Source: Rossellomorea aquimaris (GTDB taxonomy: Bacteria > Bacillota > Bacilli > Bacillales > Bacillaceae_B). Taken from it: a DNA stretch of 64,000 nt. Positions 12,923 to 55,545 of the stretch are shown piece by piece; position 1 is the first letter of the stretch; each line of letters begins with the position of its first letter. The notes under the pieces are model-generated. The model saw nothing but the letters and a program-made list of their open reading frames with translations. It ran no database searches and was not told where the DNA came from. The translations under genes and the position numbers were made by a program. Where the stretch lies: assembly GCF_000935355.1 (NCBI RefSeq), contig NZ_JXZC01000007.1:62001-126000 (forward strand). Reading direction: 5' to 3'.

Positions 12923-13116
12923 TCTAATGTATAATCATTGGAGAAATATATCAACTTATAAACTGTCAGATTAGCACATTCAACTCTCTGAGACATTTTG
13001 ACTCACAAAAGGGAGAATATTTTTCATTACTTAAAAACCGATTACCATTGACACCTTCCATTTGATGCATATAAAATGTGAAATAATCATTTTCAACATA
13101 TAAAATCATATAAACA

Positions 13117-13183
13117 CTCGTATAATATTGGAAATATGGTCCAAAAGTTTCTACCAAACCACCGTAAATGGTTTGACTACGAG
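13117..13183 (+). ncRNA. Purine riboswitch aptamer, guanine class
   Basis: P1 is CTCGTA (13117-13122) with TACGAG (13178-13183). The conserved junction GTTTCTACC is at 13147-13155. The 3' junction reads GACTA, so the specificity base equivalent to position 74 is C (13177), the guanine/hypoxanthine type; adenine aptamers have U. The remaining ~90 bp form an expression platform with terminator and antiterminator before the adenine deaminase gene. Confidence 0.92.
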
Positions 13184-13226
13184 AGGGAGTAGAGCCAAAA
13201 GTCTCTATTCTTCTCTCTCTACGTCA

Positions 13227-16830: not shown

Positions 16831-17029
16831 TCTGACAACCCCTCTCAATCTTTTCTATAAATCAGTCAAACAACCGATTTATTATTTAATAAAATTGCTA
16901 GCTACACTATCATCTACGGAATAGTTGTAGAAAAGTTTCAATATTTAGGTAAATTTTCTAATTTAAATCCATTAATACCTAGCCCTTCCTTCTCATTCCT
17001 GTGATAAAATAAAAGCGTTCACAATTTAT

Positions 17030-17215
17030 ACATTGCTCATTGGTGAAGATGATCAGTTCATCTTCTTAAAAGGGAAGTTGGTGAAAGTCCAACGCGGTCC
17101 CGCCACTGTAAAGCTGAGAATTCGTATGCATCCACTGTTTCCAATCGAAATGGGAAGGAATGCGAAATCGCTGACGCTGAGCCAGGAGACCTGCCAAATG
17201 GGAAGAACACAGAAG
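17030..17215 (+). ncRNA. Cobalamin riboswitch
   Basis: Contains the core GCGGTCCCGCCACTGTA (17094-17110) and the B12 box GCCAGGAGACCTGCC (17181-17195), preceded by the GGAAG...GGTGAAAGTCC segment. These are the strongest signatures of this class. The ends are approximate. About 85 bp downstream is an intrinsic terminator, so control is probably transcriptional. The only gene before the next terminator is an acyl-CoA thioesterase. Confidence 0.93.
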
Positions 17216-29279: not shown

Positions 29280-30728
29280 CTATCCTCTAATCCTCTCAAT
29301 CTCATCAGCCACAAACTGCACCGACGTCCCGACAATCACTTGAATGCTATTTTCCCCGACCACATGAATGCCAGGAACTCCTGTCGCTTTGATTCGCGCC
29401 TGATCCACGGCATCCATGTCCTTCACTTCCACTCTCAATCTTGTTATACAATTATCAACGGATGTTACATTTTCATCTCCGCCGAGTCCTGCATAGATCT
29501 CCGTTGCCATCACGGCAAACTTTTCGCTTTGAGTATGAGCTGTTGCACTCTCCCCGACGGCTTCTTCGCTGTCTTCTTCACGCCCCGGTGTCATAAGATT
29601 GAATTTCGCGATCATGAAACGGAACAAGAAATAGTAGAGAAGGGCAAATACGACACCTTGTATGAGAAGCATATACGGAAGGTTCGCTAACGGAAGTCTT
29701 GAGCTCAGGATGAAATCGACGAATCCTGCGCTGAAGCCAAATCCTGCCGTCCATTGAAAGAAGGAGGCAATGGCCAGGGATAACCCTGTCAGGACCGCAT
29801 GCGCTACATAAAGGGCAGGTGCCACAAACATGAAGGCAAACTCGAGAGGCTCAGTCACTCCTGTGAAAAAGGAAGCAAAACCGGCAGCCAGCATCAGTGA
29901 TGCCACCTGCTTCTTCTTACTTGGTTTTGCAGCATGATAGATGGCAAGCCCCGCTGCAGGAAGACCAAACATCATGACCGGGAAGAACCCAGCCTGATAC
30001 ATTCCCGTCACACCTTTTTCACCCTTACCTGACCAGAAGTTCCCGATATCATTAATACCGGCAACGTCGAACCAGAATACGGAATTCAAAGCATGATGCA
30101 ATCCTGTAGGAATTAATAATCGATTAAAGAAGCCATATAAACCAGCACCCGTGAAGCCGAGCCCGCTGATTTCCTTCCCGAATGAAACCAGGGCAGTGTA
30201 GATGACCGGCCAAACGAACAGCATCACGCCTGATACAACCAGCATGGCAATCGCCGACATGATCGGAACCAATCGTTTTCCGCTAAAGAAAGCGAGTGCA
30301 TCCGGAAGCTTCACAGAACTGAATCGATTGTACATAACTGCCGCAACGATCCCTGACAGAATTCCGACAAACTGATTACCGATTTTCTCAAATGCAGGAT
30401 TGACCGATGCGGCATCCACACCTTGAAGCAGTGCAACTGAGTCCGTTGAAAGGAGTGTTGTAATAACGAGATAAGCGACCAACCCGCTCAGGGCTGCAGA
30501 ACCATCCTTTGTTTTGGCCATCCCGAGCGCCACCCCGACCGCAAACAGAATCGACATATTATCAATGATCGAAGCGCCCGCCTTGATTAAGAAAGCTGCA
30601 ATCGGACTATCCGCACCCCAACCAGTCGGATCGATCCAATACCCGATCCCCATCAGAATCGCGGCGGCCGGCAGAACGGCAACCGGAAGCATCAACGAAC
30701 GACCAATACGCTGAAGATATTTCATCAT
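29280..30728 (-). CDS. nagP: PTS N-acetylglucosamine transporter, EIIBC
   Basis: Imports and phosphorylates GlcNAc to GlcNAc-6P. The protein has 482 residues: a Glc-family EIIC domain (about 1-370, with TGLHHALNSVFWFDVAG and GVTEPLEFAFMFVAP) and a C-terminal EIIB domain with phospho-Cys in VDNCITRLRVEV (near 425). There is no fused EIIA, as in Bacillus NagP. AGGGGG precedes the ATG pair. No nagA, nagB or nagR is adjacent, and no cre or dre-like operator is visible in the 165 bp upstream. It complements the MurNAc cluster at 46-55 kb, whose end product is also GlcNAc-6P. Confidence 0.92.
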   Translation of the reverse strand: MMKYLQRIGRSLMLPVAVLPAAAILMGIGYWIDPTGWGADSPIAAFLIKAGASIIDNMSILFAVGVALGMAKTKDGSAALSGLVAYLVITTLLSTDSVALLQGVDAASVNPAFEKIGNQFVGILSGIVAAVMYNRFSSVKLPDALAFFSGKRLVPIMSAIAMLVVSGVMLFVWPVIYTALVSFGKEISGLGFTGAGLYGFFNRLLIPTGLHHALNSVFWFDVAGINDIGNFWSGKGEKGVTGMYQAGFFPVMMFGLPAAGLAIYHAAKPSKKKQVASLMLAAGFASFFTGVTEPLEFAFMFVAPALYVAHAVLTGLSLAIASFFQWTAGFGFSAGFVDFILSSRLPLANLPYMLLIQGVVFALLYYFLFRFMIAKFNLMTPGREEDSEEAVGESATAHTQSEKFAVMATEIYAGLGGDENVTSVDNCITRLRVEVKDMDAVDQARIKATGVPGIHVVGENSIQVIVGTSVQFVADEIERIRG

Positions 30729-42488: not shown

Positions 42489-42748
42489 TTCATCCATTCC
42501 CCTCTTCACTTCTCATCCCTATTTTACCACCACTCTAACTCTAATGTTCGCAAGATTCTGTCATCATTCTAACCCTTTCTTCAGTTTTCGAAACTTTTTA
42601 CCTAGTCAATTCCTCCTGGTTAACGATGGAATATTCAGTTTTTTCACCTCGTTGGTACTATATACCATAAGATCACAACACCTTATAATGAAAATAGAAA
42701 TAATATTTCATATTTTTATTTTATTTCGTGAAGTATTATTTCAAAAAA

Positions 42749-42762
42749 TGAAAACGGTTTCT
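42749..42762 (+). promoter_or_regulatory. Candidate cre (CcpA) site upstream of the glycosidase
   Basis: TGAAAACGGTTTCT matches the cre consensus TGWAANCGNTNWCA at all defined positions but the last. It lies 40 bp before the start codon. The rest of 42489-42801 is AT-rich; a GGTACTATATACC quasi-palindrome is at 42653-42665. Confidence 0.6.
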
Positions 42763-42801: not shown

Positions 42802-44352
42802 ATGAAAGCAGTAAAGTACATGATCATGGCCGCCTTGTTGTTCTCGCTTGCCCTTCCTTTTTCTACAGGAAAAGCAAAAGCTTCGGAAACTCAGGTGCCT
42901 AAACATGAAATGCGTGCAGCATGGATTGCCACGGTTCAAAACATTGATGTGAAAGCTGGAATGGACAAGCAGGAGTATACGGATTGGGTTACAGAGACCC
43001 TTGACGAACTGAAAGAGTTGAAGTTTAATACCGTCATCTATCAGGTGAAACCTACTGTAGATGCCTTCTATCCATCTAAACTGGCTCCTTGGTCCCAGTA
43101 TATTACAGGTGACAAACAAGGAACCGATCCGGGATATGATCCACTTCAGATCATGATCGATGAATCTCATAAGCGCGGAATCGAGGTTCATGCATGGGTG
43201 AATCCGTACCGAATCACGATGGCAAATCAAACGATCGAGTCACTTGCAGATAACAATGTAGCTAAACTGCATCCAGAATGGGTAGTGAAATATGGCAAGC
43301 AATATTATTTGGACCCGGGTATACCCGAAGTCCAAGAATACCTGATTGATACGGTTGAAGAATTAGTGAGCAATTACGACATTGAAGCCGTTCACATGGA
43401 CGACTATTTCTATCCTTACCGAATTGCAGGAGAAATCTTCCCAGATCAAGATACATACGAGAAATATGGAAGTTCATTTGACGATATTGAAGACTGGAGA
43501 CGAAATAACGTAGATGTTCTTGTAGCTGACATCAATTCAGCCATCAAAGACATTAAAGAATGGGTTCAGTTCGGTATTTCCCCATTTGGTGTATGGAGAA
43601 ATATTGCCGATGATCCGACAGGAAGCGCTACACAGGCAGGACAAACGAATTATGACGACCTGTATGCAGACACTCGCCAATGGATCAAAGATGGAAGCAT
43701 CGATTATATTACCCCACAAATCTATTGGTCTAGAAATCTAGCTGTTGCTAATTACTCCGTTCTTTTGGATTGGTGGAGTCAGGAAGTGAACGAGTATGCG
43801 TACAACCACCCTGTTAATCTTTATATCGGGATGGCTGACTATAAGGTAGGAGACAATTTTGACCAGGAATGGTTCAATCCTTACGAGCTGCCTGAGCAAA
43901 TCATGGACAACCGTGAAAATGGAACCACCCTTGGTCAAATGCATTTCTCTCTTAGACAAATTTTCGAGAACCCGCTTGGTTACGCAGATATTTTACGTAA
44001 CGAGGTTTACACAGAACCCGCTTTAACTCCTGCCACTCCTTGGAACAATGAAACGCTGCCAAAGAAACCAAATACGGTGAAAGCAGACAAACATGAAAAT
44101 CATGTAACGTTGACCATCGATGATCAACATCACTCCGATGCCAGAAAATATGTCATCTATCGCTTTGATGGCGTGAAAGAAGGAGATTACGAGAATCCGG
44201 CAAACATTGTGGACGTCGTTTATTCTCAAGAAGGGCTTACAACGTATGAAGATACTTCAGCCGAAGAAGATGGAATGTACACATATGGCGTTACGTCCGT
44301 ATCTCCGACAGGGGTAGAAAGTAAGGATGCGAAAACGGTAAGGGTACAATAA
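42802..44352 (+). CDS. Secreted glycoside hydrolase-like protein, GHL10/DUF187 family (YngK-like)
   Basis: Exported protein of about 516 residues. Signal peptide with cleavage near KAKA-SETQ; GHL10 TIM-barrel domain from about residue 40 (MRAAWIATVQNIDVK, EVHAWVNPYRIT, AVHMDDYFYPYR, FGISPFGVWRN, DYITPQIYWS); a C-terminal fibronectin-III-like segment (about 430-516). Start at 42802 after GGGGGAT; the open frame extends about 107 codons upstream without signal features. The family is thought to act on cell-surface polysaccharide, substrate unproven. A cre-like site suggests carbon repression. Confidence 0.9.
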   Translation: MKAVKYMIMAALLFSLALPFSTGKAKASETQVPKHEMRAAWIATVQNIDVKAGMDKQEYTDWVTETLDELKELKFNTVIYQVKPTVDAFYPSKLAPWSQYITGDKQGTDPGYDPLQIMIDESHKRGIEVHAWVNPYRITMANQTIESLADNNVAKLHPEWVVKYGKQYYLDPGIPEVQEYLIDTVEELVSNYDIEAVHMDDYFYPYRIAGEIFPDQDTYEKYGSSFDDIEDWRRNNVDVLVADINSAIKDIKEWVQFGISPFGVWRNIADDPTGSATQAGQTNYDDLYADTRQWIKDGSIDYITPQIYWSRNLAVANYSVLLDWWSQEVNEYAYNHPVNLYIGMADYKVGDNFDQEWFNPYELPEQIMDNRENGTTLGQMHFSLRQIFENPLGYADILRNEVYTEPALTPATPWNNETLPKKPNTVKADKHENHVTLTIDDQHHSDARKYVIYRFDGVKEGDYENPANIVDVVYSQEGLTTYEDTSAEEDGMYTYGVTSVSPTGVESKDAKTVRVQ

Positions 44353-45885: not shown

Positions 45886-46000
45886 GGGCGGGGTATCCTT
45901 TCTGAAAGAGGTCTTTGTATCATGGTATGCTCGTCCAGGGGAAAGATGTGGGGATTGTGTTGGAATTGGGAGTGTGGATGGGATGAATTTTTGGTTTTTT

Positions 46001-46097
46001 GAAAATAAATCCGGGAATTTGAAAATAAGTTGGATGATTTTGAAAATAAATCTGAGAATTTGAAAATAAGTTGGGTGATTTTGAAAATAAACTGGGA
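46001..46097. repeat. Phased GAAAATAA array, 20/21-bp period
   Basis: GAAAATAA recurs at 46001, 46021, 46042, 46062 and 46083: spacings 20, 21, 20, 21. Alternate units resemble each other, so the higher-order repeat is 41 bp. It is in the intergenic region between the EamA start and the GH4 stop. Confidence 0.8.
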
Positions 46098-46129
46098 TCA
46101 GGAACCGCTCGGGTATCGCTGATCTATCG

Positions 46130-46252
46130 AGAGTCGATAAAATAATGGGCAAAGTCGATAATATATCCAGAAAGTCGATAATAAACAGGCCAAACTCGAT
46201 AATATATCCAAAAAGTCGATAATAAACAGCTCAAAGTCGATAATATCTCAAC
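46130..46252. repeat. Phased AGTCGATAAT array, 21/20-bp period
   Basis: Six units; the GTCG core (CTCG once) is at 46133, 46154, 46174, 46195, 46215 and 46236: spacings 21, 20, 21, 20, 21. Units alternate between ATATATCC and ATAAACAG tails, a 41-bp higher-order repeat. There are no unique spacers, so it is not CRISPR. Confidence 0.85.
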
Positions 46253-46290: not shown

Positions 46291-46323
46291 AAAAAAGTGC
46301 CTCAAATCACCATTTGAGACACT
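46291..46323 (-). terminator. Intrinsic terminator of the GH4 operon
   Basis: AGTGCCTCAAAT pairs with ATTTGAGACACT (one mismatch) around CACC, followed on the minus strand by T5-T6, 8 bp after the stop. Confidence 0.88.
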
Positions 46324-46331
46324 ATCCTTCC

Positions 46332-47663
46332 TTAACTATGGCTAAATCGCTCATGAAACTGGGGTAAATACTCTTTATGCACCTCAAGCATTTCATCCAG
46401 CAGCAGCTTCGCCTTCACATCGCTCGTCACCAACGGATTGATCGTCATGGCAAGCATCGCTTTTTCATAGGATCCCGTAACCGATGCTTCTGCAGCAACG
46501 CGTTCAAAAGATTTAATTTGATGAACAAGTCCACTCACAGCCACTGGCAGCTCTCCGACTGCAATCGGCTTGGGGCCGGACTTCGTAACGACGCAGTTCA
46601 CTTCCACGGCGGATTCCCGCGGCATATCACTGATTGCACCGTCGTTCTGTACATTCAGCGTTTGAATGTCTCCGCGGTCATTAAAAATGGATGAGATGAG
46701 ATTACAGGCCGCATCGCTGTAATAAGCCCCTCCCCTTTGTTCAAGCTGCGGAGGCTTGATATCAAGGTTTTCATCCTTGTAAAGTTCGAAAAGCTCATTT
46801 TCTAATTGCTGGACCACTTCGGCCCTGGTGGTCCCCGTCTTGAATTCCTCTATCTGCTTTTCTAAAATATCACTGGTTTTATAGAAATAGCGGTGATACG
46901 GACATGGAATGATTCCCAGACTCTTGATGAACTCCGGCTCCCATGGAAGTGGAGCAATATTCCTCATGCTGACCTGCTTGTCGGGATTGCTCATGACTTC
47001 CAGCACGTCCCCTAAAACCGATTCACCGTCCACCAAAACGTCCAACCCGTAAACCATATGGTTCAATCCTGCAAAGTCGATATGCAGTCGTTCCACCTCC
47101 ACATCAAGAAGCCTGGCCAATGTCATTCTCGTATTTATGGGCAGATTACATACCCCAACGACCTTAGGATGTGACCCGTACCGGAGCAGAGCTTCTGTCA
47201 CCATGCCTGCCGGATTCGTAAAATTGATCAGCCAGGCGTCCGGGCAAAGCTCCTGCATTTCATCTGCGATATCAAGTAGGACCGGAATCGTCCTCATTCC
47301 CTTGAACAATCCCCCGGCCCCATTCGTTTCCTGGCCAATCATCCCGTACTTGATCGGAAGCCTCTCATCGTGAATTCTCGCTTTTAATTGTCCGACTCTC
47401 ATTTGAGTCGTGACAAAATCAGCATCTACCAATGCCTCTTTCCTGTCCAATGTCAGATGAATCTCCATGGGAACCCCGGCTTTTTCCACCATTCTCTTCG
47501 CCAAATTCCCAACGATGTCGAGCTTATCTTTCCCAGCTTCAACATCCACAAGCCACAGCTCACTCACTGGAAGCTCATCATAACGCTTGATCAATCCTTC
47601 CACAAACTCGGGCGTATAGCTTGAGCCCCCTCCGATCGTAACGATCTTGATTCCGTTCTTCAT
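46332..47663 (-). CDS. GH4 family 6-phospho-beta-glucosidase-like enzyme (LicH/ChbF type)
   Basis: NAD+- and metal-dependent glycosidase of 443 residues that cleaves phosphorylated disaccharides brought in by a PTS. NAD-binding VTIGGGSSYTPEF at the N-terminus, LINFTNPAGMVTEAL near 145, metal-binding Cys in GVCNLPINTR near 170, and His in GLNHMVYG near 200. It is last in an operon with Lac-family PTS IIB and IIC and an RpiR regulator, and that cluster faces MurNAc-recycling genes, so its substrate may be a cell-wall disaccharide phosphate rather than cellobiose-6P. That is inference. Confidence 0.9.
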   Translation of the reverse strand: MKNGIKIVTIGGGSSYTPEFVEGLIKRYDELPVSELWLVDVEAGKDKLDIVGNLAKRMVEKAGVPMEIHLTLDRKEALVDADFVTTQMRVGQLKARIHDERLPIKYGMIGQETNGAGGLFKGMRTIPVLLDIADEMQELCPDAWLINFTNPAGMVTEALLRYGSHPKVVGVCNLPINTRMTLARLLDVEVERLHIDFAGLNHMVYGLDVLVDGESVLGDVLEVMSNPDKQVSMRNIAPLPWEPEFIKSLGIIPCPYHRYFYKTSDILEKQIEEFKTGTTRAEVVQQLENELFELYKDENLDIKPPQLEQRGGAYYSDAACNLISSIFNDRGDIQTLNVQNDGAISDMPRESAVEVNCVVTKSGPKPIAVGELPVAVSGLVHQIKSFERVAAEASVTGSYEKAMLAMTINPLVTSDVKAKLLLDEMLEVHKEYLPQFHERFSHS

Positions 47664-47681
47664 TGTGTATGCCTCCTCTGA

Positions 47682-47972
47682 TTACTTGGCAACAAACGCC
47701 AATACAAAGCTTATTAAGAAACTGACAACCACTGCTAATAAAACGCGCTTCTTTTTAACAGAAGCATCTTCAACGGGACCTTCAATTTTCAAAAGAACAA
47801 ATGAGAGTCCAATCGAAGCCGAAATCCCCGTTGCTAAAAATACGCTCCAATCCTTTGCGAGTCCCGCACTCATCAAGGGTTTGGAAAGAAGTAAAAGTCC
47901 AATAGATACGGAGATCAGAAGAACAAAAACACTCCTGAAACCGATTCTCTTAGGGACAACCGTCTCTGTCAT
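47682..47972 (-). CDS. Small three-helix membrane protein in the PTS/GH4 operon, unknown
   Basis: Protein of 96 residues with three hydrophobic stretches (about residues 12-28, 38-56, 72-94). GGGAGTGA precedes ATG 47972. The open frame continues upstream through the repeat region but that part has no start signal and is rich in repeat-derived sequence. It starts after the tandem repeats and ends 18 bp before the GH4 gene. No family recognised; its position suggests a link to sugar uptake. Confidence 0.7.
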   Translation of the reverse strand: MTETVVPKRIGFRSVFVLLISVSIGLLLLSKPLMSAGLAKDWSVFLATGISASIGLSFVLLKIEGPVEDASVKKKRVLLAVVVSFLISFVLAFVAK

Positions 47973-48067
47973 TTGAATCACTCCCAATGCTAATGAAGAA
48001 GTGGGAATCCTAGGACCCCCACTTCTGTTATTTTGATATGATCGTATTTTACTAGGGGCAAAGCCCC

Positions 48068-48454
48068 TCCGCTTTTCTATCTGTCCAGCTGCGGCGGCTA
48101 GCCCCTCGAGGTCATAAGTCAATTCAACCCAAAAGGCAAAGAACGCCTTTCCGGTTGATTCGCCTTATGCTTGTCGGGGCTGATCGAGCCGCCTCCGCTT
48201 TTCTATTGTCCAGCTGCGGGCTTAGAGGCTCGAGGTCATAAGCCAATTCATCCAAAAAGGCAAAGAACGCTTTCTGGCTGACTCGTCTTATGCTTGTCGC
48301 CTCTGGGCAAAGCCCCTCCGCTTTTCTATTGTCCAGCTGCGGGGCTTAGAGGCTCGAGGTCATAAGTCCAGCCCACCAAAAAGGCAAAGAACGCCTTTCC
48401 GGTGGACTTGCCTTATGCTTGTCGCCTCTGGGCAAAGCCCCTCCGCTTTTCTAT
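48068..48454. repeat. Three tandem ~125-bp hairpin repeats plus a partial copy
   Basis: Units start at 48068, 48194 and 48317 with TCCGCTTTTCTAT...GTCCAGCTGCGG, and the opening bases repeat again at 48442, running into the PTS IIC stop codon. Each unit has TCGAGGTCATAAG near the left, CTTATGCTTGTCG near the right and a central AAAGGCAAAGAACGCCTTT hairpin. Stem bases next to the central hairpin differ between units but stay complementary (unit 1 AATTCAACC/GGTTGATT, unit 3 AGTCCAGCCCACC/GGTGGACTT). It resembles a repeat common in Bacillaceae genomes, from memory. Confidence 0.92.
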
Positions 48455-49734
48455 TATGCGGCTTGTTGTTCGTTTTCTTCCATTTTCATCATCTTCTTGT
48501 CGTACATTTTGAAGAATGGGAAATAGATAGCGAACGAGATTGCGATATTGATAAGAACCATGACGATGGCTCTCCAGTCACCACCCGTTGCCAGGTACGC
48601 TCCGATTGGTGCCGGGAGTGTCCATGGAGGCATGATGTAGGTTGGCGATACCAGCCCTACAGTTGTTGCAACATATGCCAGAGTACCCGTGATAAGCGGG
48701 ATCGTTACAAATGGAATGATCAGAATCGGATTCAATACAATGGGAGCACCGAAGATGATGGGCTCATTGATATTGAAGATACCAGGTACGATACTTGTTC
48801 TTCCTAACGCTTTCAGGTATTTTGAGCGGGAGAAGAAGACCATGGCAAGAACCAATCCAAGAGTCGCTCCTGATCCACCTATCCAGATGAACCACTGGTA
48901 GAATGTCTCCGGTGCGATGTGTGGAATCGCTTCTCCGTTTGCAACCGCATCTGCGTTGTTTACAAGGAACACTTCCCATAGTGGACGCGCAACCGTTCCT
49001 ACTACAGATACACCGTGGATACCGAATGACCAGAAGAATGTAATTAAGAATACCGGAATTAATACGCCGAATATACTGTCACCAGCAGTAACCAATGGAG
49101 CAACCGCTACACCGATTAGATGATGCAAGTCTACTCCTGCCACTACGGTAACCGCAGAAACCAATAGAATGACAATCGCTACAGGAATAAGTGCTTCAAA
49201 GCTTCGTGATACAGATGCCGGTACTTGCTCAGGCATTTTGATCGTAATATTTTTCGTCTTACAGAATCTCAGGATTTCAACTGCCAGAATCGATACGACC
49301 ATGGCGACGAATAATCCATGACCACCAAGGTTGGTCATTGGCAGGACCCATCCTTCTCCGTCCATTACTTTTGGAGTAATCGTCAATAGAAGAGCAGCTA
49401 CTGAAATTTGGGCACCGGATAATGGATCCAGGTTATAGCTTTTCGAGAGGTTGTATCCTATCCCGAAGGCTATATAGAGTGACATGATGAACATGGTCAG
49501 TCGGTATGGAATCAGGATTTCGACGATGTTGTCTGCGGCCCACTGCTTGATGTCTCCGAATATTCCGCCATCAGGCAGCGGTGGAAAAGCTAAGATCAGG
49601 AAAAATGAACCGACGATGATAAATGGCAGTGCTGAAATAACCCCATCCCGGATTGCTTGCAAATGCCTTTGTTCAGAGAGTCGGGCCATTGGACCTGATA
49701 AGTTATTCTCTAGAAAATTCACAAACTTTTGCAT
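48454..49734 (-). CDS. PTS IIC, lactose/cellobiose family (CelB/LicC-like)
   Basis: Sugar-translocating membrane subunit, 426 residues, about eight to ten helices. Family landmarks: ISALPFIIVGSFFLILAFPP near residue 35, the NEPIIFGAPIVLNP signature near 320, and WTLPAPIGAYLATGGD near 385. There is no fused IIB. Works with IIB (27 bp upstream) and the IIA encoded on the other strand. Its stop codon lies inside a partial repeat unit. Context suggests import of a murein-derived or other beta-linked disaccharide. Confidence 0.93.
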   Translation of the reverse strand: MQKFVNFLENNLSGPMARLSEQRHLQAIRDGVISALPFIIVGSFFLILAFPPLPDGGIFGDIKQWAADNIVEILIPYRLTMFIMSLYIAFGIGYNLSKSYNLDPLSGAQISVAALLLTITPKVMDGEGWVLPMTNLGGHGLFVAMVVSILAVEILRFCKTKNITIKMPEQVPASVSRSFEALIPVAIVILLVSAVTVVAGVDLHHLIGVAVAPLVTAGDSIFGVLIPVFLITFFWSFGIHGVSVVGTVARPLWEVFLVNNADAVANGEAIPHIAPETFYQWFIWIGGSGATLGLVLAMVFFSRSKYLKALGRTSIVPGIFNINEPIIFGAPIVLNPILIIPFVTIPLITGTLAYVATTVGLVSPTYIMPPWTLPAPIGAYLATGGDWRAIVMVLINIAISFAIYFPFFKMYDKKMMKMEENEQQAA

Positions 49735-49761
49735 GTTTTTACCCCCTTGTTTCCTATTAAA

Positions 49762-50067
49762 TTAGTTGGTTAATTCTTTTACTGTTTTCAGTAAAGTCGG
49801 GCCACCAAGTGGCGTGTATGCTTGTGGAGGAATCGGACCGCAAGGAACATTCGCTTCATCAGCGGCTTTCTTCACTTGATCAAAACGGTGTCTGATCTGC
49901 GGTGCTACCATACAAACATCCCATCCTTTGGAAATCTCCTCAGATACCTCACCGGTTCCAATTGCATGGACTTCCATCTCAATCCCTGCTTTGTCCCCTT
50001 CTTTTTTCAGTGCATTAACGACAATTGCGCTGGACATTCCCCCGGAACATACGAATAATACTCTCAT
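49762..50067 (-). CDS. PTS IIB, lactose/cellobiose family
   Basis: Cytoplasmic phosphotransfer subunit, 101 residues, with phospho-Cys in LFVCSGGMSSAIV (Cys7-8 region) and the MVAPQIRHR segment typical of this family. It starts 2 bp after the RpiR regulator stop and precedes IIC by 27 bp. It receives phosphate from the IIA encoded at 51096. Confidence 0.93.
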   Translation of the reverse strand: MRVLFVCSGGMSSAIVVNALKKEGDKAGIEMEVHAIGTGEVSEEISKGWDVCMVAPQIRHRFDQVKKAADEANVPCGPIPPQAYTPLGGPTLLKTVKELTN

Positions 50068-50069
50068 TT

Positions 50070-50936
50070 CTACTCTTCCTCCTCTTTCATTCTTTGTACT
50101 ACTTCATGTGTATGAATAATTTGCTCGTAGACGCCATGTCCTTTTTTCATGCATAAAGCGACGAATAAAGCATCAATCACGACGAGTTGAGCAATTCTTG
50201 CCGTCATGGTCCCGATTCTGATATTGTGTTCCTCCTCGGAAATCGTCAGGACGATATCAGCCAGCTTCCTTGCGGGTGATTTCCCATGCTGTGTCAATAG
50301 AATGATTGTGGCTCCTTTTTCCTCGGCTACATTCATCAGCTTAAGTATTTCCTTTGTCTGACCCGATGTTGAGACGACGAAGAGAACGTCTCTTTCCGTT
50401 AAGTTTGCGGCCATCATCATTTGCACATGGATATCACTCGCTTGAAACGCCAGATAGTTGAGCCTTAATAGTTTTTGAGTAAAGTCTTCCGCTACTACAG
50501 CTGAACCTCCCACTCCATACAGGTATACCCGTTCAGCTTCATGGAACGCGTTCACAGCACGATCCAGTTCATCTATGGAAAAAAGCTTTTCCGTGTTCTT
50601 GATCGCTTGATAGGTGTTTACCAGTACTTTGTTAAATACGGTTTCAAGATTGTCTTCAAAGTGCAGGAGTGTATTGATATCATGACTCATTGTTTCTTCA
50701 ATATTCGTGCTTTTGGCCAGTTCGATTTTCAAGCCGCTGAAACTATTGATCCCGATCCGTTTGCAGAACCGGATGATGGCGGCTTCACTGCTGCCACATG
50801 ATTGTGAGAGTTGCTTTGTCGTCATTTCCATTACTTTCTCAGGAAACTCCAACACATATTGAGCAACCGCAATTTCAGACGGGGTGTAATTCTCCATCTG
50901 ACTTTTGATGTGTTTTAATACTTGAAATTCTGTCAT
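50070..50936 (-). CDS. RpiR/MurR-family transcriptional regulator
   Basis: Regulator of 288 residues: N-terminal HTH_6 domain (TPSEIAVAQYVLEFPEKVME, CGSSEAAIIRFCKRIG) and C-terminal SIS sugar-phosphate-binding domain (YLYGVGGSAVVAEDF, DVLFVVSTSGQTKEIL). GGAGGTGACT precedes ATG 50936. It sits between two divergent operons and a palindrome in the intergenic region is its likely operator. MurR-type members respond to MurNAc-6P; by context that is a reasonable ligand here. Confidence 0.9.
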   Translation of the reverse strand: MTEFQVLKHIKSQMENYTPSEIAVAQYVLEFPEKVMEMTTKQLSQSCGSSEAAIIRFCKRIGINSFSGLKIELAKSTNIEETMSHDINTLLHFEDNLETVFNKVLVNTYQAIKNTEKLFSIDELDRAVNAFHEAERVYLYGVGGSAVVAEDFTQKLLRLNYLAFQASDIHVQMMMAANLTERDVLFVVSTSGQTKEILKLMNVAEEKGATIILLTQHGKSPARKLADIVLTISEEEHNIRIGTMTARIAQLVVIDALFVALCMKKGHGVYEQIIHTHEVVQRMKEEEE

Positions 50937-50962
50937 AGTCACCTCCAAAAAAATGATTGTCT

Positions 50963-50976
50963 TGAAAAGGCTTTCA
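50963..50976. promoter_or_regulatory. Candidate cre site between the divergent sugar operons
   Basis: TGAAAAGGCTTTCA matches the cre consensus TGWAANCGNTNWCA with one change (C to G). It would give CcpA control to both operons. Confidence 0.5.
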
Positions 50977-50995
50977 GTTTAATATGATTATATGC

Positions 50996-51015
50996 GATAA
51001 TGAAATTAAATTTCA
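50996..51015 (+). promoter_or_regulatory. Extended -10 and palindromic operator of the PTS IIA/mupG operon
   Basis: GATAAT (50996-51001, with an upstream TGC) overlaps the perfect 15-bp palindrome TGAAATTAAATTTCA (51001-51015). A repressor at the palindrome would block the start site. The RpiR regulator encoded next door is the likely ligand-dependent binder. Confidence 0.65.
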
Positions 51016-51095
51016 ATATTATTTTAAAATATTTAAACTTTTATTTTACTACTCTAGAAAAAACTAGTTCTAAACAGAATGAGGAGGAATACACA

Positions 51096-51428
51096 ATGGC
51101 AGAGGTACGCAACGTAGAAATGGAGATTTTTGAAATTATATCAAACGGCGGGAATGCAAAAAGCACCGCATATGAGGCACTTGCAAAGGCACATGAAGGT
51201 AAGTTTGATGAAGCTGAAGAAATGCTTAAGACAGCTCATGAGGAGCTGAACAAAGCTCACAAAACGCAAACGAGTCTGATTCAGGCAGAAATCAATGGAG
51301 AAGATTTTGAAAAATCACTTCTGATGATTCATGCCCAGGACCACTTGATGACCTCTATCAGTGAAATCTCATTAATTGAGCAGATGATACCCTTGTTAAA
51401 AAGAATAGATAAACTAGAAAACAACTAA
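51096..51428 (+). CDS. PTS IIA, lactose/cellobiose family
   Basis: Soluble phosphocarrier, 110 residues, all-helical, with the active histidine in LMIHAQDHLMTS (near residue 80). Start ATG 51096 after GAGGAGGA; an open frame upstream lacks a ribosome site. It is the missing component for the IIB and IIC on the opposite strand, and leads the operon of MurNAc-recycling enzymes, tying the two together. Confidence 0.94.
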   Translation: MAEVRNVEMEIFEIISNGGNAKSTAYEALAKAHEGKFDEAEEMLKTAHEELNKAHKTQTSLIQAEINGEDFEKSLLMIHAQDHLMTSISEISLIEQMIPLLKRIDKLENN

Positions 51429-51446
51429 TTTTAAGGAGGCATACCA

Positions 51447-52535
51447 ATGAGTAAAAGACTGGGAGTTTCAATTTACCCGAACCATTCAACGACTGAAAAA
51501 GATAAAGAATACCTGGCACTGGCTGCGTCTTACGGTTTTAAGCGCGTGTTCACCTGCTTATTATCAGTTGAAGGAGACAAAGATGGGATCATCTCGAACT
51601 TTAAAGAAACGATTAAGTTTGCCCGCGAAAAAAATATGGAAGTCATCGCTGACATCAGTCCCCGTATTTTCAAAGAACTGAATATCTCGTATGATGATTT
51701 ATCCTTTTTTGCGGACCTGGGTGCTCACGGTATCCGCCTTGACCTCGGGTATACAGGGCATGAAGAATCGATGATGTCGTACAACCCTTATGATCTGAAA
51801 ATTGAGCTCAATATGAGTAATGCAACGAAATACATCGATAACATCATGACGTATCAACCGAATAAGGATCAATTGCTTGGATGTCATAACTTCTATCCTC
51901 ACCGCTACTCCGGTTTATCCTATCCATTCTTTATCGATTGCAGCCAAAAGTTTAAGGATTTCGGGATGAGAACGGCCGCGTTTGTCTCTTCTTCCGATGC
52001 TACATTCGGTCCATGGCCGGTCACGGAAGGATTGCCTACGTTAGAAATGCATCGGAACCTTCCGATCGAAGTCCAGGCGAAGCATCTTTTTGCCACAGGG
52101 TTGATTGATGATGTCATTATCAGTAACGCTTATGCATCAGAACGTGAAATACAGCTTCTCAGTGAACTGAACACATCGAAGCTGACCTTTACAGTCGAAA
52201 CCTGTGAGACGACCACTGACTTGGAAAAGACGATTATATTTGAAGAACCGCACTTTTATCGTGGTGACGTGTCTGATTACTTGATCCGCTCGACTCAAAG
52301 CCGCGTGAAATATCGTGGAAGAGAATTCGCTCCCCACAATACAGCTGATATAAAGCGCGGAGACATTGTCATTGAAAACGACCTATATGCCCAGTATGCG
52401 GGCGAGCTTCAAATCGCACTTCAAGATATGGAGAACTCAGGCAAAACCAATGTGGTGGGGCGGATCCGCGAAGAAGAAATCTTCTTATTGGATTACCTGA
52501 AGCCATGGGGTAAATTTGCGTTTCAAACCAAGTAA
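51447..52535 (+). CDS. mupG: 6-phospho-N-acetylmuramidase (MupG, DUF871)
   Basis: Cytoplasmic glycosidase that splits MurNAc-6P-GlcNAc after PTS uptake, as shown for the S. aureus protein. 362 residues, in the usual range: N-terminal TIM barrel (RLGVSIYPNHST, CHNFYPHRYSGLSYPFF near residue 150, AAFVSSSDATFGPWPVTEGL near 180) and a C-terminal cyclophilin-like domain (about 240-362). AAGGAGGC precedes the ATG. Second gene of the operon, 18 bp after PTS IIA. Confidence 0.92.
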   Translation: MSKRLGVSIYPNHSTTEKDKEYLALAASYGFKRVFTCLLSVEGDKDGIISNFKETIKFAREKNMEVIADISPRIFKELNISYDDLSFFADLGAHGIRLDLGYTGHEESMMSYNPYDLKIELNMSNATKYIDNIMTYQPNKDQLLGCHNFYPHRYSGLSYPFFIDCSQKFKDFGMRTAAFVSSSDATFGPWPVTEGLPTLEMHRNLPIEVQAKHLFATGLIDDVIISNAYASEREIQLLSELNTSKLTFTVETCETTTDLEKTIIFEEPHFYRGDVSDYLIRSTQSRVKYRGREFAPHNTADIKRGDIVIENDLYAQYAGELQIALQDMENSGKTNVVGRIREEEIFLLDYLKPWGKFAFQTK

Positions 52536-52552
52536 TGTGGAGGTTTCTTTAG

Positions 52553-53467
52553 ATGACTAGAGTAATAGGGATCGATGCAGGCGGGACGAAAATACAGGGA
52601 CTCGTTCTTGATTCAGAGAAGAACATCCTGTTCCAAAGCTTATCCGGACACGGCAATCCAACGGTTTCCTTTGATGAGGCACTTACCAATCTCTCATCCG
52701 TGATTCAACAATGCCTGGAACACACTTCTTCTGATGAGGTTTCCCATATTGTCATCGGGATGGCAGGTGCCGAGTCAGGTAATCTGGCTCATCGAATCAG
52801 GATGGAGTTACAAAGGATGACTTCCCTGCCCATAATCGTTTTGAATGATGCCACCCTTGCCTATTTCAGTTTAATCGGGAATCAGGACGGTGTGATGACG
52901 ATTGCGGGAACGGGTTCGATTTGTTATGGACGAAACGGTAAACAGGAAGGAACGACCGGCGGCTGGGGACACCTTCTTGGTGACGAAGGCAGTGCGTATC
53001 ATATTGCGATTGAAGCCTGTAAGCAGGCTTCAATGGAAATGGATTCCGGTAAACCACCTTCCCCTCTCTCCCTTGATATTTTAAACGAAATCGGAGCGAG
53101 TGATGGGAAAGGATTAAAAGGGTTCATCTATTCTTCTGTCAAAGGTGAAATTGCAAAGCTTGCGAAAGTGGTTCACAAGCAGGCTGAAGCTGGTAATGAA
53201 TCGGCCCTTCTTTTATTTAAAAATGCCGGGGAGCAGCTGGCCCGACAGACAACTACCTTAATGGAGAAACTGCAGATCACTGCGAAACCGGTTATTGCCT
53301 TAAAAGGAAGTGTCCTTGAACATAATGTGGTGGTGCAATCCACTTTTAAAGAAGGGGTTTCAGAGCGTTTTCCAGACGCTTCCTATATCATCGACTCTAC
53401 CTCCCCTGCCACAGGGGCAGTCGATGTGACAAAAGCCATCAGGGAAGGAAGGTTGTCATATGAGTAA
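52553..53467 (+). CDS. N-acetylglucosamine/MurNAc kinase, BadF/BcrA ATPase family (MurK-like)
   Basis: Sugar kinase of the ASKHA superfamily, 304 residues. IGIDAGGTKIQGLVLD is the phosphate-1 motif, AGAESG, LNDATLAYFS and TIAGTGSICYG are the following motifs, and GGWGHLLGDEGSAY is typical of GlcNAc kinases. Clostridial MurK phosphorylates both MurNAc and GlcNAc at O6. Here it would use the GlcNAc released by MupG. Overlaps anmK by 8 bp. Confidence 0.9.
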   Translation: MTRVIGIDAGGTKIQGLVLDSEKNILFQSLSGHGNPTVSFDEALTNLSSVIQQCLEHTSSDEVSHIVIGMAGAESGNLAHRIRMELQRMTSLPIIVLNDATLAYFSLIGNQDGVMTIAGTGSICYGRNGKQEGTTGGWGHLLGDEGSAYHIAIEACKQASMEMDSGKPPSPLSLDILNEIGASDGKGLKGFIYSSVKGEIAKLAKVVHKQAEAGNESALLLFKNAGEQLARQTTTLMEKLQITAKPVIALKGSVLEHNVVVQSTFKEGVSERFPDASYIIDSTSPATGAVDVTKAIREGRLSYE

Positions 53468-54626
53468 GCGTTTAGCCGTCGGATTAATGTCCGGTACGTC
53501 TGTGGATGGGGTGGATGCTGCCCTTGTTTCAATTGAAGGGAGTGGCACGGATACAAAAGTGGAGTTCGTTCATTATTCGACGAGTCCCTTCCCTTCCCAC
53601 GTAAAAAAGAAAATCTTCGACGTTATGAGTGTCACAGAATCGTCCACTCCCCTCCTTTCCAGCTTGCATTTTGAACTTGGAGACGTTTATGCCGATGCTG
53701 TGTTGAAGGTGTGTAGAGAGGCTGGCACTTCAGTAGAGGAGTTAGACTTTATCGGATCTCACGGGCAAACGGTCTATCACCAGCCTTTTCATACGGAAGA
53801 GTCGGTTCCTTCCACTTTGCAGATCGGTGAGCCGAGCGTGATAGCGTACCGTACCAACACTAGGGTAGTCTCCAATTTCCGCTCCATGGATATGGCTGCC
53901 GGAGGTGAAGGGGCCCCTCTTGTACCTTATACTGAATTCCTTCTCTACCGAAAAGAAGACCGGGGACGACTTCTTCAGAATATCGGCGGAATCGGAAATG
54001 TGACCGTACTTCCTAAAGGTTGCTCTCTTGAGGAAGTCTTCGCATTTGATACTGGTCCTGGAAATATGGTCATAGATGGTTTATGCGAGCGACTGTTGGG
54101 CCTCTCTTTTGATGAGAATGGAGAGATTGCTGCGAAAGGAACGGTCCACAAAGAAATCGCACAAAAATGGATGGAATGGGAGAAGGATTTCTTCCTTAAA
54201 GAGCCTCCTAAATCAACGGGCCGCGAGCTGTTTGGAGAAGTATTCGTAAATCGGATCCTTGACGAGTTTGGGGATCTTTCGAAAGAAGACCTCATTGCAA
54301 CGGCGACCTACTTTACAGCTCTGTCGATTTCTGATGCGTATAAAAAATTTGTTCTTCCAAAGCATCCCATCAACGAAGTGATCATTGGCGGCGGCGGAAG
54401 CTACAATGGGACACTTCTTCGTATGATGCGGGAGCTTCTTCCCCAGTTGGACATTCACATCCAGGAAGATATCGGTTATTCATCCGATGCCAAGGAAGCA
54501 ATCGCCTTTGCCCTCCTGGCGAACGAAACGCTTCACGGAAATCCTGGCAACGTCCCAGGAGCAACAGGAGCAGGTAAACCCGTCATACTGGGGTCCATCA
54601 CTCCTCGTCCCGTATTCACAAATTGA
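53460..54626 (+). CDS. anmK: Anhydro-N-acetylmuramic acid kinase
   Basis: Opens the 1,6-anhydro ring of anhMurNAc with ATP to give MurNAc-6P. 388 residues, the family's length. Signature motifs: GLMSGTSVDGVDAALV at the N-terminus, GSHGQTVYHQP near residue 100, GGIGNVTVL near 180, FDTGPGNMVIDGL near 200 and GGGSYNGTLLRMM near 310. Its substrate comes from lytic transglycosylases, so cell-wall fragments with anhydro ends are recycled too. Starts inside the kinase gene before it. Confidence 0.95.
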   Translation: MSKRLAVGLMSGTSVDGVDAALVSIEGSGTDTKVEFVHYSTSPFPSHVKKKIFDVMSVTESSTPLLSSLHFELGDVYADAVLKVCREAGTSVEELDFIGSHGQTVYHQPFHTEESVPSTLQIGEPSVIAYRTNTRVVSNFRSMDMAAGGEGAPLVPYTEFLLYRKEDRGRLLQNIGGIGNVTVLPKGCSLEEVFAFDTGPGNMVIDGLCERLLGLSFDENGEIAAKGTVHKEIAQKWMEWEKDFFLKEPPKSTGRELFGEVFVNRILDEFGDLSKEDLIATATYFTALSISDAYKKFVLPKHPINEVIIGGGGSYNGTLLRMMRELLPQLDIHIQEDIGYSSDAKEAIAFALLANETLHGNPGNVPGATGAGKPVILGSITPRPVFTN

Positions 54627-54645
54627 AAGGCAGGTACTGTAGAAC

Positions 54646-55545
54646 ATGGACCTTCATAAGATCCTGACTGAAACGAGAAATCCTCGAACTTTAAACATAG
54701 ATACATTAAGCACGGAGAATATTTTGGAGAAAATCAATGGTGAAGATCAGACTGTTGCCTACGCCGTGGAAAGAACCATCCCAGTTGTTTCACGTGTAGT
54801 CGATTCCATCGTTGCAGGGTTGGAAAAAGGCGGACGTCTTCTTTATGTAGGTGCAGGCACAAGCGGACGTCTCGGCATCCTTGACGCATCAGAATGCCCG
54901 CCTACCTTCAGCACAGATCCCGGCCAGGTGATCGGAATCATCGCGGGTGGTGAAAGAGCCATCCAGTTTCCCTTAGAAGGCGCCGAGGATGATGAAGAAG
55001 GCGGGCGCAACGAAATCGTGATCCGTGAAGTCGGTCCAAATGATGTCGTGGTTGGCATTGCCGCAAGCGGACGGACGCCCTATACGATCGGAGCCTTAAA
55101 GGAAGCAAATTCAAGAGGAGCCGTAACGGCCTCGGTCGTTTGCTCACCTCAATCCCCGATGTGTGATGTGGCCGATCACTCGATCGTCGCAGAAGTCGGT
55201 CCGGAAGTCGTCACGGGCTCGACGCGAATGAAAGCCGGAACAGCCCAAAAACTGATTTTGAATATGATCACAACCGCATCCATGATCAAACTGGGCAAAG
55301 TATACAGCAATCTCATGGTCGACGTGATGCCATCAAACGAAAAACTGAAAGTCAGAGCGCGCAACATCATCATGGAAGCAGCGGACGTCTCCGAACGAGA
55401 AGCAACCGAAGCCCTTGAAACATACGGCAGTGTCAAACCTGCCATCCTATCGCTTCTGACTGGCCTCGAAGAAAAAGAAGTCTACGACCTTCTCACCCTT
55501 CACAAAGGCCACCTGCGCTCAGCCATGAAAGCCGGAATGAAATAA
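54646..55545 (+). CDS. murQ: N-acetylmuramic acid 6-phosphate etherase
   Basis: Removes D-lactate from MurNAc-6P to give GlcNAc-6P. 299 residues with the SIS-domain motif YVGAGTSGRLGILDASECPP (about residue 66) and GSTRMKAGTAQKLILN (about 185), both diagnostic. Last gene of the operon. The D-lactate it releases could be oxidised by the LDHD-type enzyme elsewhere in the window. A repeat half-element follows 9 bp after the stop. Confidence 0.96.
   Translation: MDLHKILTETRNPRTLNIDTLSTENILEKINGEDQTVAYAVERTIPVVSRVVDSIVAGLEKGGRLLYVGAGTSGRLGILDASECPPTFSTDPGQVIGIIAGGERAIQFPLEGAEDDEEGGRNEIVIREVGPNDVVVGIAASGRTPYTIGALKEANSRGAVTASVVCSPQSPMCDVADHSIVAEVGPEVVTGSTRMKAGTAQKLILNMITTASMIKLGKVYSNLMVDVMPSNEKLKVRARNIIMEAADVSEREATEALETYGSVKPAILSLLTGLEEKEVYDLLTLHKGHLRSAMKAGMK

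Follow-up and report, generated by a model that had tools for sequence, protein, structure and literature searches.

A Lac-family phosphotransferase cluster for peptidoglycan sugars in Rossellomorea aquimaris and its predicted regulon with murQ-murP

In Gram-negative bacteria, peptidoglycan is recycled by the AmpG-NagZ-AnmK-MurQ route, in which a lytic transglycosylase acts outside the cell, AnmK and MurQ act inside, and anhydro-N-acetylmuramic acid (anhMurNAc) is the intermediate. We describe here a gene cluster at positions 46332–55545 of a 64,000-nucleotide stretch of DNA (the whole stretch to be referred to as the window) from Rossellomorea aquimaris, whose genome comprises 4.3 Mb in 44 contigs. 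AnmK and MurQ are present in this cluster as well, and anhMurNAc is its proposed intermediate. There are differences from the Gram-negative route, however: a phosphotransferase system (PTS) of the lactose (Lac) family stands in place of AmpG (no search for AmpG was made), GH3 NagZ is not found in the genome (0 of 1; the controls match in 10 of 14), and phosphorylation would precede glycosidic cleavage. NamZ is also not found in the genome (0 of 1). Judging from the genes, the PTS of this tandem-operator cluster on balance probably imports N-acetylglucosamine-N-acetylmuramic acid (GlcNAc-MurNAc) and GlcNAc-anhMurNAc, phosphorylating the GlcNAc end.

In Staphylococcus aureus, MurP and MupG are reported to carry out the uptake and cleavage of MurNAc-GlcNAc (PMC6262408). 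The mupG-murQ-murP-murR genes of that system resemble those of the window in a GH170 protein, MurQ, an RpiR-type regulator and disaccharide uptake by a PTS. S. aureus has a Glc-family MurP, whereas the window cluster has Lac-family IIA, IIB and IIC proteins, and a MurP-like IIBC is located elsewhere in the genome, in a murQ-murP-mupG locus (L088). The GH170 of the window also belongs to a different clade from the MurP-linked proteins, and no GH4, MurK or AnmK is found beside MurP-linked genes. An earlier annotation of this DNA (the first-pass annotation) proposed a new transport specificity, for example MurNAc-GlcNAc. A specificity unlike that of MurP is indeed likely, but MurNAc-GlcNAc itself would not be new, being the reported substrate of MurP and MupG (PMC6262408), and an operon of that kind exists in this genome.

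The chb operons of E. coli (GH4 and ChbG) and L. paracasei (ChbE) likewise combine a Lac/cellobiose PTS with a phospho-glycosidase; MurQ, MurK and AnmK are not named among their genes in the available part of that report (PMC12791066). In comparison, the window cluster has no ChbG, its regulator is of the RpiR type, and its operator is common to murQ-murP. The celRBAXC operon of B. coagulans (CELO2) also pairs a cellobiose-type PTS with a DUF871 protein; it was studied with cellobiose, and the available text describes five genes, with no phospho-glucosidase or MurNAc enzymes among them (PMC6271610). A Lac/cellobiose-type PTS beside DUF871/GH170 was reported earlier (PMC6271610, PMC12791066). 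The combination described here was not found in the titles and abstracts of the literature searched, a scope outside which most subscription papers lie.

Gene content, GH170 clades and the kinases beside MurQ

Genes were called with Pfam and NCBIfam profile searches and by comparison with solved structures in the Protein Data Bank (PDB). All the genes named by the first-pass annotation are present with strong family matches, and MurK, AnmK and MurQ are also recognized by solved structures. The inventory had missed a 96-residue membrane protein, a pair of operators starting at 51001 and 51034, and a GHL10 protein with its own operator pair.

The plus-strand unit begins with a lactose/cellobiose-family PTS EIIA (51096–51428; PF02255, 118 bits), which starts at about 51096 rather than at the start of the open reading frame (ORF), 51000. 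It is followed by a GH170 protein of the MupG family (51447–52535; PF19200/PF05913), assigned by its tree to a Lac-PTS-linked clade (clade II, see below), and by MurK, a BadF-type MurNAc/GlcNAc kinase (52553–53467; PF01869), whose closest solved relative, 8zo3 (118 bits), is an N-acetylmuramic acid/N-acetylglucosamine kinase. The next gene encodes the anhMurNAc kinase AnmK (53460–54626; PF03702, 333 bits; NF007142, 556 bits against a cut-off of 435). Among solved chains, levoglucosan kinase (226 bits) and AnmK (215 bits) come closest to this protein, of which only one copy is found in the genome. The unit ends with the MurNAc-6-phosphate etherase MurQ (54646–55545; TIGR00274, 369 bits, cut-off 302; PDB 4lzj, 302 bits).

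On the minus strand are an RpiR/MurR-type regulator (50070–50936; PF01418 and PF01380; ATG at 50936 after GGAGG), a lactose/cellobiose-family EIIB (49762–50067; PF02302, 47 bits, cut-off 23.6) and EIIC (48454–49734; TIGR00410, 412 bits, cut-off 236; PDB 3qnq, 298 bits), the 96-residue membrane protein (47682–47972) and a GH4 6-phospho-beta-glycosidase with a CNLP motif (46332–47663; PF02056/PF11975; PDB 5c3m/1s6y, about 700 bits).

This combination of genes recurs, in differing orders, in Rossellomorea, Peribacillus, Virgibacillus, Brevibacillus and Gottfriedia. In Gottfriedia the genes form a single co-directional run, AnmK-MupG-IIB-IIC-GH4-IIA-MurK-MurQ-RpiR, and in Brevibacillus they likewise form one co-directional run. 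AnmK is absent from the Virgibacillus loci L015 and L016, and MurQ from 11 of 13 Rossellomorea-group loci of the Lac cluster; 10 relatives with a MurQ-less Lac cluster retain exactly one full MurQ, the murP-linked copy. Because the combination recurs across genera in different gene orders, the linkage of GH4, PTS and MurNAc genes is not due to chance. The cluster is a real, dedicated peptidoglycan-sugar system and not a cellobiose operon beside MurNAc genes. The earlier proposal that PTS and GH4 belong functionally with the MurNAc genes is supported by the co-directional units elsewhere, by the common operator, and by a GH4 clade whose members all come from clusters of this kind. Exceptions to the linkage are L210 and L240, where an IIC about 70% identical to that of the window adjoins GH4 in a stretch without GH170. 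The record of L016 is titled Roseburia sp. 1XD42-34; in the trees it falls with Virgibacillus, and its label may be wrong.

For comparison, 74 loci (L001–L074) were found with the window GH170 as query, and this sample is biased towards that protein. An even survey of 299 genomes of the same class as the host gave GH170 in 89 genomes, at 103 places; 60 of the 101 places outside the host's own genome were fetched (the top 41 by score plus 19 others). The GH170 tree of 134 rows divides into two sets, with support of 100 on the branch separating them, from a quick method that gave a long-branch warning. Clade I (33 rows) includes the L088 protein and is MurP-only in 30 rows, with Lac and MurP in 1, Lac in 1 and neither in 1. 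Clade II (101 rows) includes the window GH170 and has Lac in 89 rows, Lac and MurP in 3, neither in 9 and MurP only in 0. S. aureus MupG itself is outside the rows of the tree. The name MupG of the first-pass annotation does not hold for the window protein. Its tree placement rules out membership in the MurP-linked clade; by its sequence it is a paralogue of that clade, 27% identical to the murP-linked copy in L088, and not an S. aureus-type enzyme. Across both clades 32 residues are invariant, with likely catalytic acids among them (the invariant residues include D69, R97, D99, H147, N148, E200, R203, R272, D274, E320 and Q322), so the basic chemistry is probably kept in both.

ChbE, the GH170 of L. 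paracasei found with a cellobiose-type PTS, is reported to be required for growth on diacetylchitobiose, and a GH170 other than MupG can therefore serve a GlcNAc-6P disaccharide (PMC12791066). Its reported identity to S. aureus MupG is 26%, which only suggests that ChbE is not in clade I. With the aim of placing ChbE in the tree, 12 Lactobacillaceae genomes were searched by coordinates for DUF3284 beside GH170, and none was found. Beside a Clostridium GH170/Lac-PTS cluster there is a NamZ with no obvious signal peptide (L029:13265-14455).

The clades differ in the kinases. Of 29 cases in which MurQ lies no more than 8 kb from a clade I GH170, none shows MurK or AnmK. For clade II, MurK is present in 39 of 40 cases and AnmK in 27 of 40; the lone MurK miss (L040) involves that locus's second GH170, which is clade I in the tree. 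In the survey loci alone, MurK is beside MurQ in 0 of 28 clade I and 7 of 7 clade II cases (Fisher p 1.5e-7, kinship ignored), and AnmK in 0 of 28 and 6 of 7. MurK was searched with the window protein as query, and strongly divergent kinases could escape. MurQ is thus paired with MurK in Lac-PTS clusters, whereas MurP clusters lack this pairing. MurP leaves MurNAc phosphorylated. If instead the GlcNAc end were the one phosphorylated by the PTS, the MurNAc or anhMurNAc released would carry no phosphate, and MurK or AnmK must therefore presumably precede MurQ.

A predicted tandem operator at three promoters

The predicted operator is a 15-bp palindrome, TGAAATWWWATTTCA, that occurs in pairs with starts 33 bp apart. 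The divergent promoter of the cluster carries such a tandem (51001–51048), made of TGAAATTAAATTTCA (51001–51015) and a degenerate copy (51034–51048). A sigma-A-type promoter for the leftward unit, TTGAAA-18-TATAAT (50987–51016, minus strand; 11 of 12 positions, by consensus match only), has its -35 box overlapping the operator.

At up to 3 mismatches, the genome has three tandem pairs, and a reversed-pattern control has 0. The pairs are located at the divergent promoter of the window, before murQ-murP-mupG, and upstream of the GHL10 gene (42696–42743, two 15-bp palindromes). Single sites with at most 1 mismatch occur at 11 places (4 for the reversed control), six of them away from these genes. 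In 75 GH170 loci (the window and L001–L074; 1.52 Mb, with many close relatives) there are 50 pairs at 33 bp, while 59 permuted half-sites yield at most 2. The 43 control loci (295 kb; 42 that have an unlinked GH4 and one, L090, that has other PTS genes) have 1 pair, at L225, with 2+2 mismatches. All 13 of the Rossellomorea-group loci that were fetched (L001–L012, L036) have a pair 87–119 bp ahead of the GHL10 match, and a pair precedes murQ in 11 of 11 murP operons of relatives. In the survey loci a pair (spaced by 33 or 34 bp, at any position of the stretch) is present in 14 of 30 for clade I and 9 of 30 for clade II; the element is thus widespread without being universal.

The predicted operator is therefore common to the cluster and murQ-murP, as would be expected of a MurR regulon, and a single regulon of the two is strongly supported by these operator sequences. 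No RpiR gene is seen in 9 of the 11 murP-operon stretches of relatives, so the RpiR of the window is likely the regulator of all three promoters. Sequences resembling CcpA cre sites lie near both operators of the window, at 50963–50976 and 42749–42762; the former is mostly kept in Rossellomorea. A single, unpaired operator-like site with 1 mismatch is located at L216 (G000:C13:1675); the gene that follows it at a distance of about 100 bp looks by eye like murC.

The L088 locus encodes MurQ (300 residues), a Glc-family IIBC (452 residues) and GH170 (342 residues). The IIBC scores 316 bits with the NCBIfam MurP model (cut-off 516) and 333 bits with the sucrose model (cut-off 559). As it is below the cut-off, with the sucrose model higher, its MurP name rests on its position beside murQ and mupG. 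A separate murP carrying all MurNAc uptake had been named as evidence that would speak against a role of the Lac-family PTS. A separate murP is indeed present, at L088 with murQ, a MurP-linked type of mupG and the same operator, and it looks like a regulon partner rather than a refutation. The genome also has a chitobiose-type operon (L089) with ChbG/YdjC, GntR, GH4, IIC, IIA and IIB, at which the genome scan finds no tandem operator. The ChbG of the genome is in L089; the window gives no match to ChbG, and neither do the loci of other Rossellomorea at the place of the window cluster. Two NagE-like GlcNAc PTS IIBC proteins were noted as well, one in the window (about 29280–30728, minus strand; TIGR01998, 659 bits) and one at G000:C12:20106 (597 bits).

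GH4, the GHL10 protein and smaller elements

The window GH4 has the GH4 domains and the CN[VLI]P motif of GH4 6-phospho-beta-glycosidases; its best solved relatives are labelled 6-phospho-beta-glucosidase. GH4 is found at E 1e-30 in 123 of the 299 survey genomes. The window protein, which is 52% identical to the GH4 of L089, is located in a clade of 36 rows that are all GH170-linked (support 97/93, and 99 once 20 unlinked paralogues are added). Of the other groups, the largest is made up of 42 unlinked rows and 1 linked row. Once the clade II loci are dereplicated by hand, window-type GH4 shows an association both with AnmK (p 0.0026) and with MurQ (p 0.0015). There is no obvious catalytic change among the seven clade-specific positions, and no clue to specificity.

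In the GH4 mechanism, C3 of the glycone is oxidized. The lactyl ether of MurNAc blocks the C3 hydroxyl, and GH4 should therefore not cleave MurNAc-6P-GlcNAc; this substrate, proposed in the first-pass annotation, is mechanistically unlikely. As the C3 hydroxyl must be free, the plausible glycones are GlcNAc-6P or glucosamine-6P (GlcN-6P). The peptidoglycan of many bacilli is N-deacetylated. The GH4 of E. coli is reported to act on glucosamine-6P glycosides, after deacetylation by ChbG (PMC12791066). Together, this precedent and the N-deacetylated peptidoglycan suggest by analogy that the GlcN form may go to GH4 and the GlcNAc form to GH170. Among 105 clade II genes, an Eis-like GNAT acetyltransferase is near 7 (L031, L033, L134, L138–L141) and GH4 near 44, never both, an exclusion that would weakly fit such a split.

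Downstream of the third operator pair is a GHL10 protein (42802–44352, plus strand; PF02638, 291 bits), a predicted Cwp19-like lytic transglycosylase with a signal peptide by eye. Its gene ends 2 kb from the cluster, and the two genes between look unrelated. The only PDB match at E 1e-3 is C. difficile Cwp19 (5oq2/5oq3), which shares the GHL10 domain with 362 bits over the catalytic domain and for which lytic transglycosylase activity yielding 1,6-anhydro products has been reported (PMC6016235). Cwp19 has three CWB2 cell-wall-binding repeats, whereas the window protein has only GHL10 by Pfam. A GHL10 gene is found inside the Clostridium clusters L043 and L044 and between AnmK and MurQ in L126. 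In the dereplicated clade II loci GHL10 occurs with AnmK (4 of 18 versus 1 of 58, p 0.01), and its association with GH4 is not significant (p 0.15).

The 96-residue membrane protein, between IIC and GH4, has no assigned family, and the longer ORF that contains it has no Pfam or NCBIfam match; it keeps an equal position in Rossellomorea, Peribacillus, Virgibacillus, Brevibacillus and some Gottfriedia. A terminator-like hairpin after GH4 (46296–46323, minus strand; consensus match only) is the probable end of the leftward unit. A 124-bp repeat in 3.2 copies (48056–48455) separates IIC from the membrane protein, and more short repeats are found at 45997–46246. The plus strand of the window also has cobalamin (17025–17212) and purine (13098–13199) riboswitches.

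Proposed route and alternatives

In the proposed route, the Cwp19-like enzyme would cut glycan strands outside the cell, leaving anhydro ends, and the Lac-family PTS would bring the disaccharide in as GlcNAc-6P-(anh)MurNAc. GH170 and GH4 would split it into GlcNAc-6P and MurNAc or anhMurNAc, possibly with GH170 taking the N-acetylated form and GH4 the de-N-acetylated GlcN form, the weakest step. MurK and AnmK would produce MurNAc-6P, which MurQ would turn into GlcNAc-6P and lactate. RpiR would repress all three promoters until MurNAc-6P or a similar sugar phosphate appears, and uptake of the opposite isomer, MurNAc-GlcNAc, would fall to the murP operon.

Several observations weigh against this route, in which substrate, operator binding and regulation are all assigned from genes. 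MurQ is not within 8 kb of 65 of the 105 clade II GH170 genes, so that MurNAc specificity does not extend to all of clade II. MurK phosphorylates GlcNAc too, 8zo3 is named for both sugars, and MurK could thus serve GlcNAc freed from MurNAc-6P-GlcNAc; cleavage of that sugar in MurP clusters frees GlcNAc as well, yet those clusters are without MurK. Six of 42 GH170-linked GH4s fall outside the 36-row clade (5 of them outside both groups), and only seven conserved positions set this clade apart from the 42 unlinked rows. The link between GH4 and AnmK is not strict, since AnmK is present in 11 of 65 dereplicated clade II loci without window-type GH4, and 4 of 11 with it have no AnmK. GHL10 proteins are not all described as lytic transglycosylases, and nearness was judged against Cwp19, not against E. 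coli DigH, a member of the same family. For DigH, hydrolysis of denuded glycans has been described (PMC12288456). Finally, the Lac-type PTS/DUF871 operon of B. coagulans is reported to have let E. coli consume cellobiose (PMC6271610).

The strongest competitor, itself unlikely though its odds overlap with those of the favoured route, keeps GlcNAc-(anh)MurNAc as the substrate and lets GH170 alone cleave it, with GH4 used for chitobiose or cellobiose, which would enter through the PTS as well. AnmK, MurK and MurQ do occur with clade II GH170 in loci lacking GH4, and ChbE is a precedent for GH170 serving a GlcNAc-6P disaccharide (PMC12791066). However, GH4 is retained as a cluster-specific clade in several genera, and the associations with AnmK and MurQ given above would have to be accounted for. 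Somewhat less probable is a Lac-family PTS that is a second MurNAc-GlcNAc importer, with GH170 cleaving MurNAc-6P-GlcNAc, MurK taking GlcNAc, and GH4 acting on a side substrate such as chitobiose-6P. MurQ is present, the invariant residues suggest that the chemistry is kept in both GH170 clades, and S. aureus MupG is reported to cleave MurNAc-6P-GlcNAc (PMC6262408). Nevertheless, an S. aureus-type operon with the same operator is already in the genome (L088), and the MurK contrast (0 of 29 versus 39 of 40) and the presence of AnmK and GH4 would be left unexplained. The least probable of the alternatives, and a quite improbable one, is that ordinary beta-glucosides or chitobiose are the substrates of PTS and GH4, which would be no more than neighbours of the MurNAc genes. 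IIC matches the cellobiose/chitobiose family, the solved relatives of GH4 carry a 6-phospho-beta-glucosidase label, almost the same residues are conserved in unlinked GH4s, and the B. coagulans operon supported cellobiose use by E. coli (PMC6271610). Against it stand the cluster-specific GH4 clade, the single co-directional unit in Gottfriedia and the operator common to murQ-murP; a plain cellobiose or chitobiose operon is rejected, as L089 exists separately, without such an operator.

The import of GlcNAc-(anh)MurNAc with phosphorylation of its GlcNAc end thus remains the preferred reading. Whether the Cwp19-like enzyme, Lac-family PTS, GH170/GH4 and MurK/AnmK/MurQ, in a single MurR regulon with MurP, together make up a Gram-positive, PTS-based counterpart of the AmpG-NagZ-AnmK route is, by our sequence-based estimate, an evenly balanced matter. 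If true, it would reveal a way in which muramidase and lytic-transglycosylase products are salvaged in some Bacilli, and would explain why two phospho-glycosidase families and two kinases are found side by side. AnmK would gain a place in Gram-positive metabolism without NagZ, and much of the second GH170 clade would be assigned a function. It would also provide a simple genomic rule: MurK beside MurQ would indicate that the PTS phosphorylates the other sugar.

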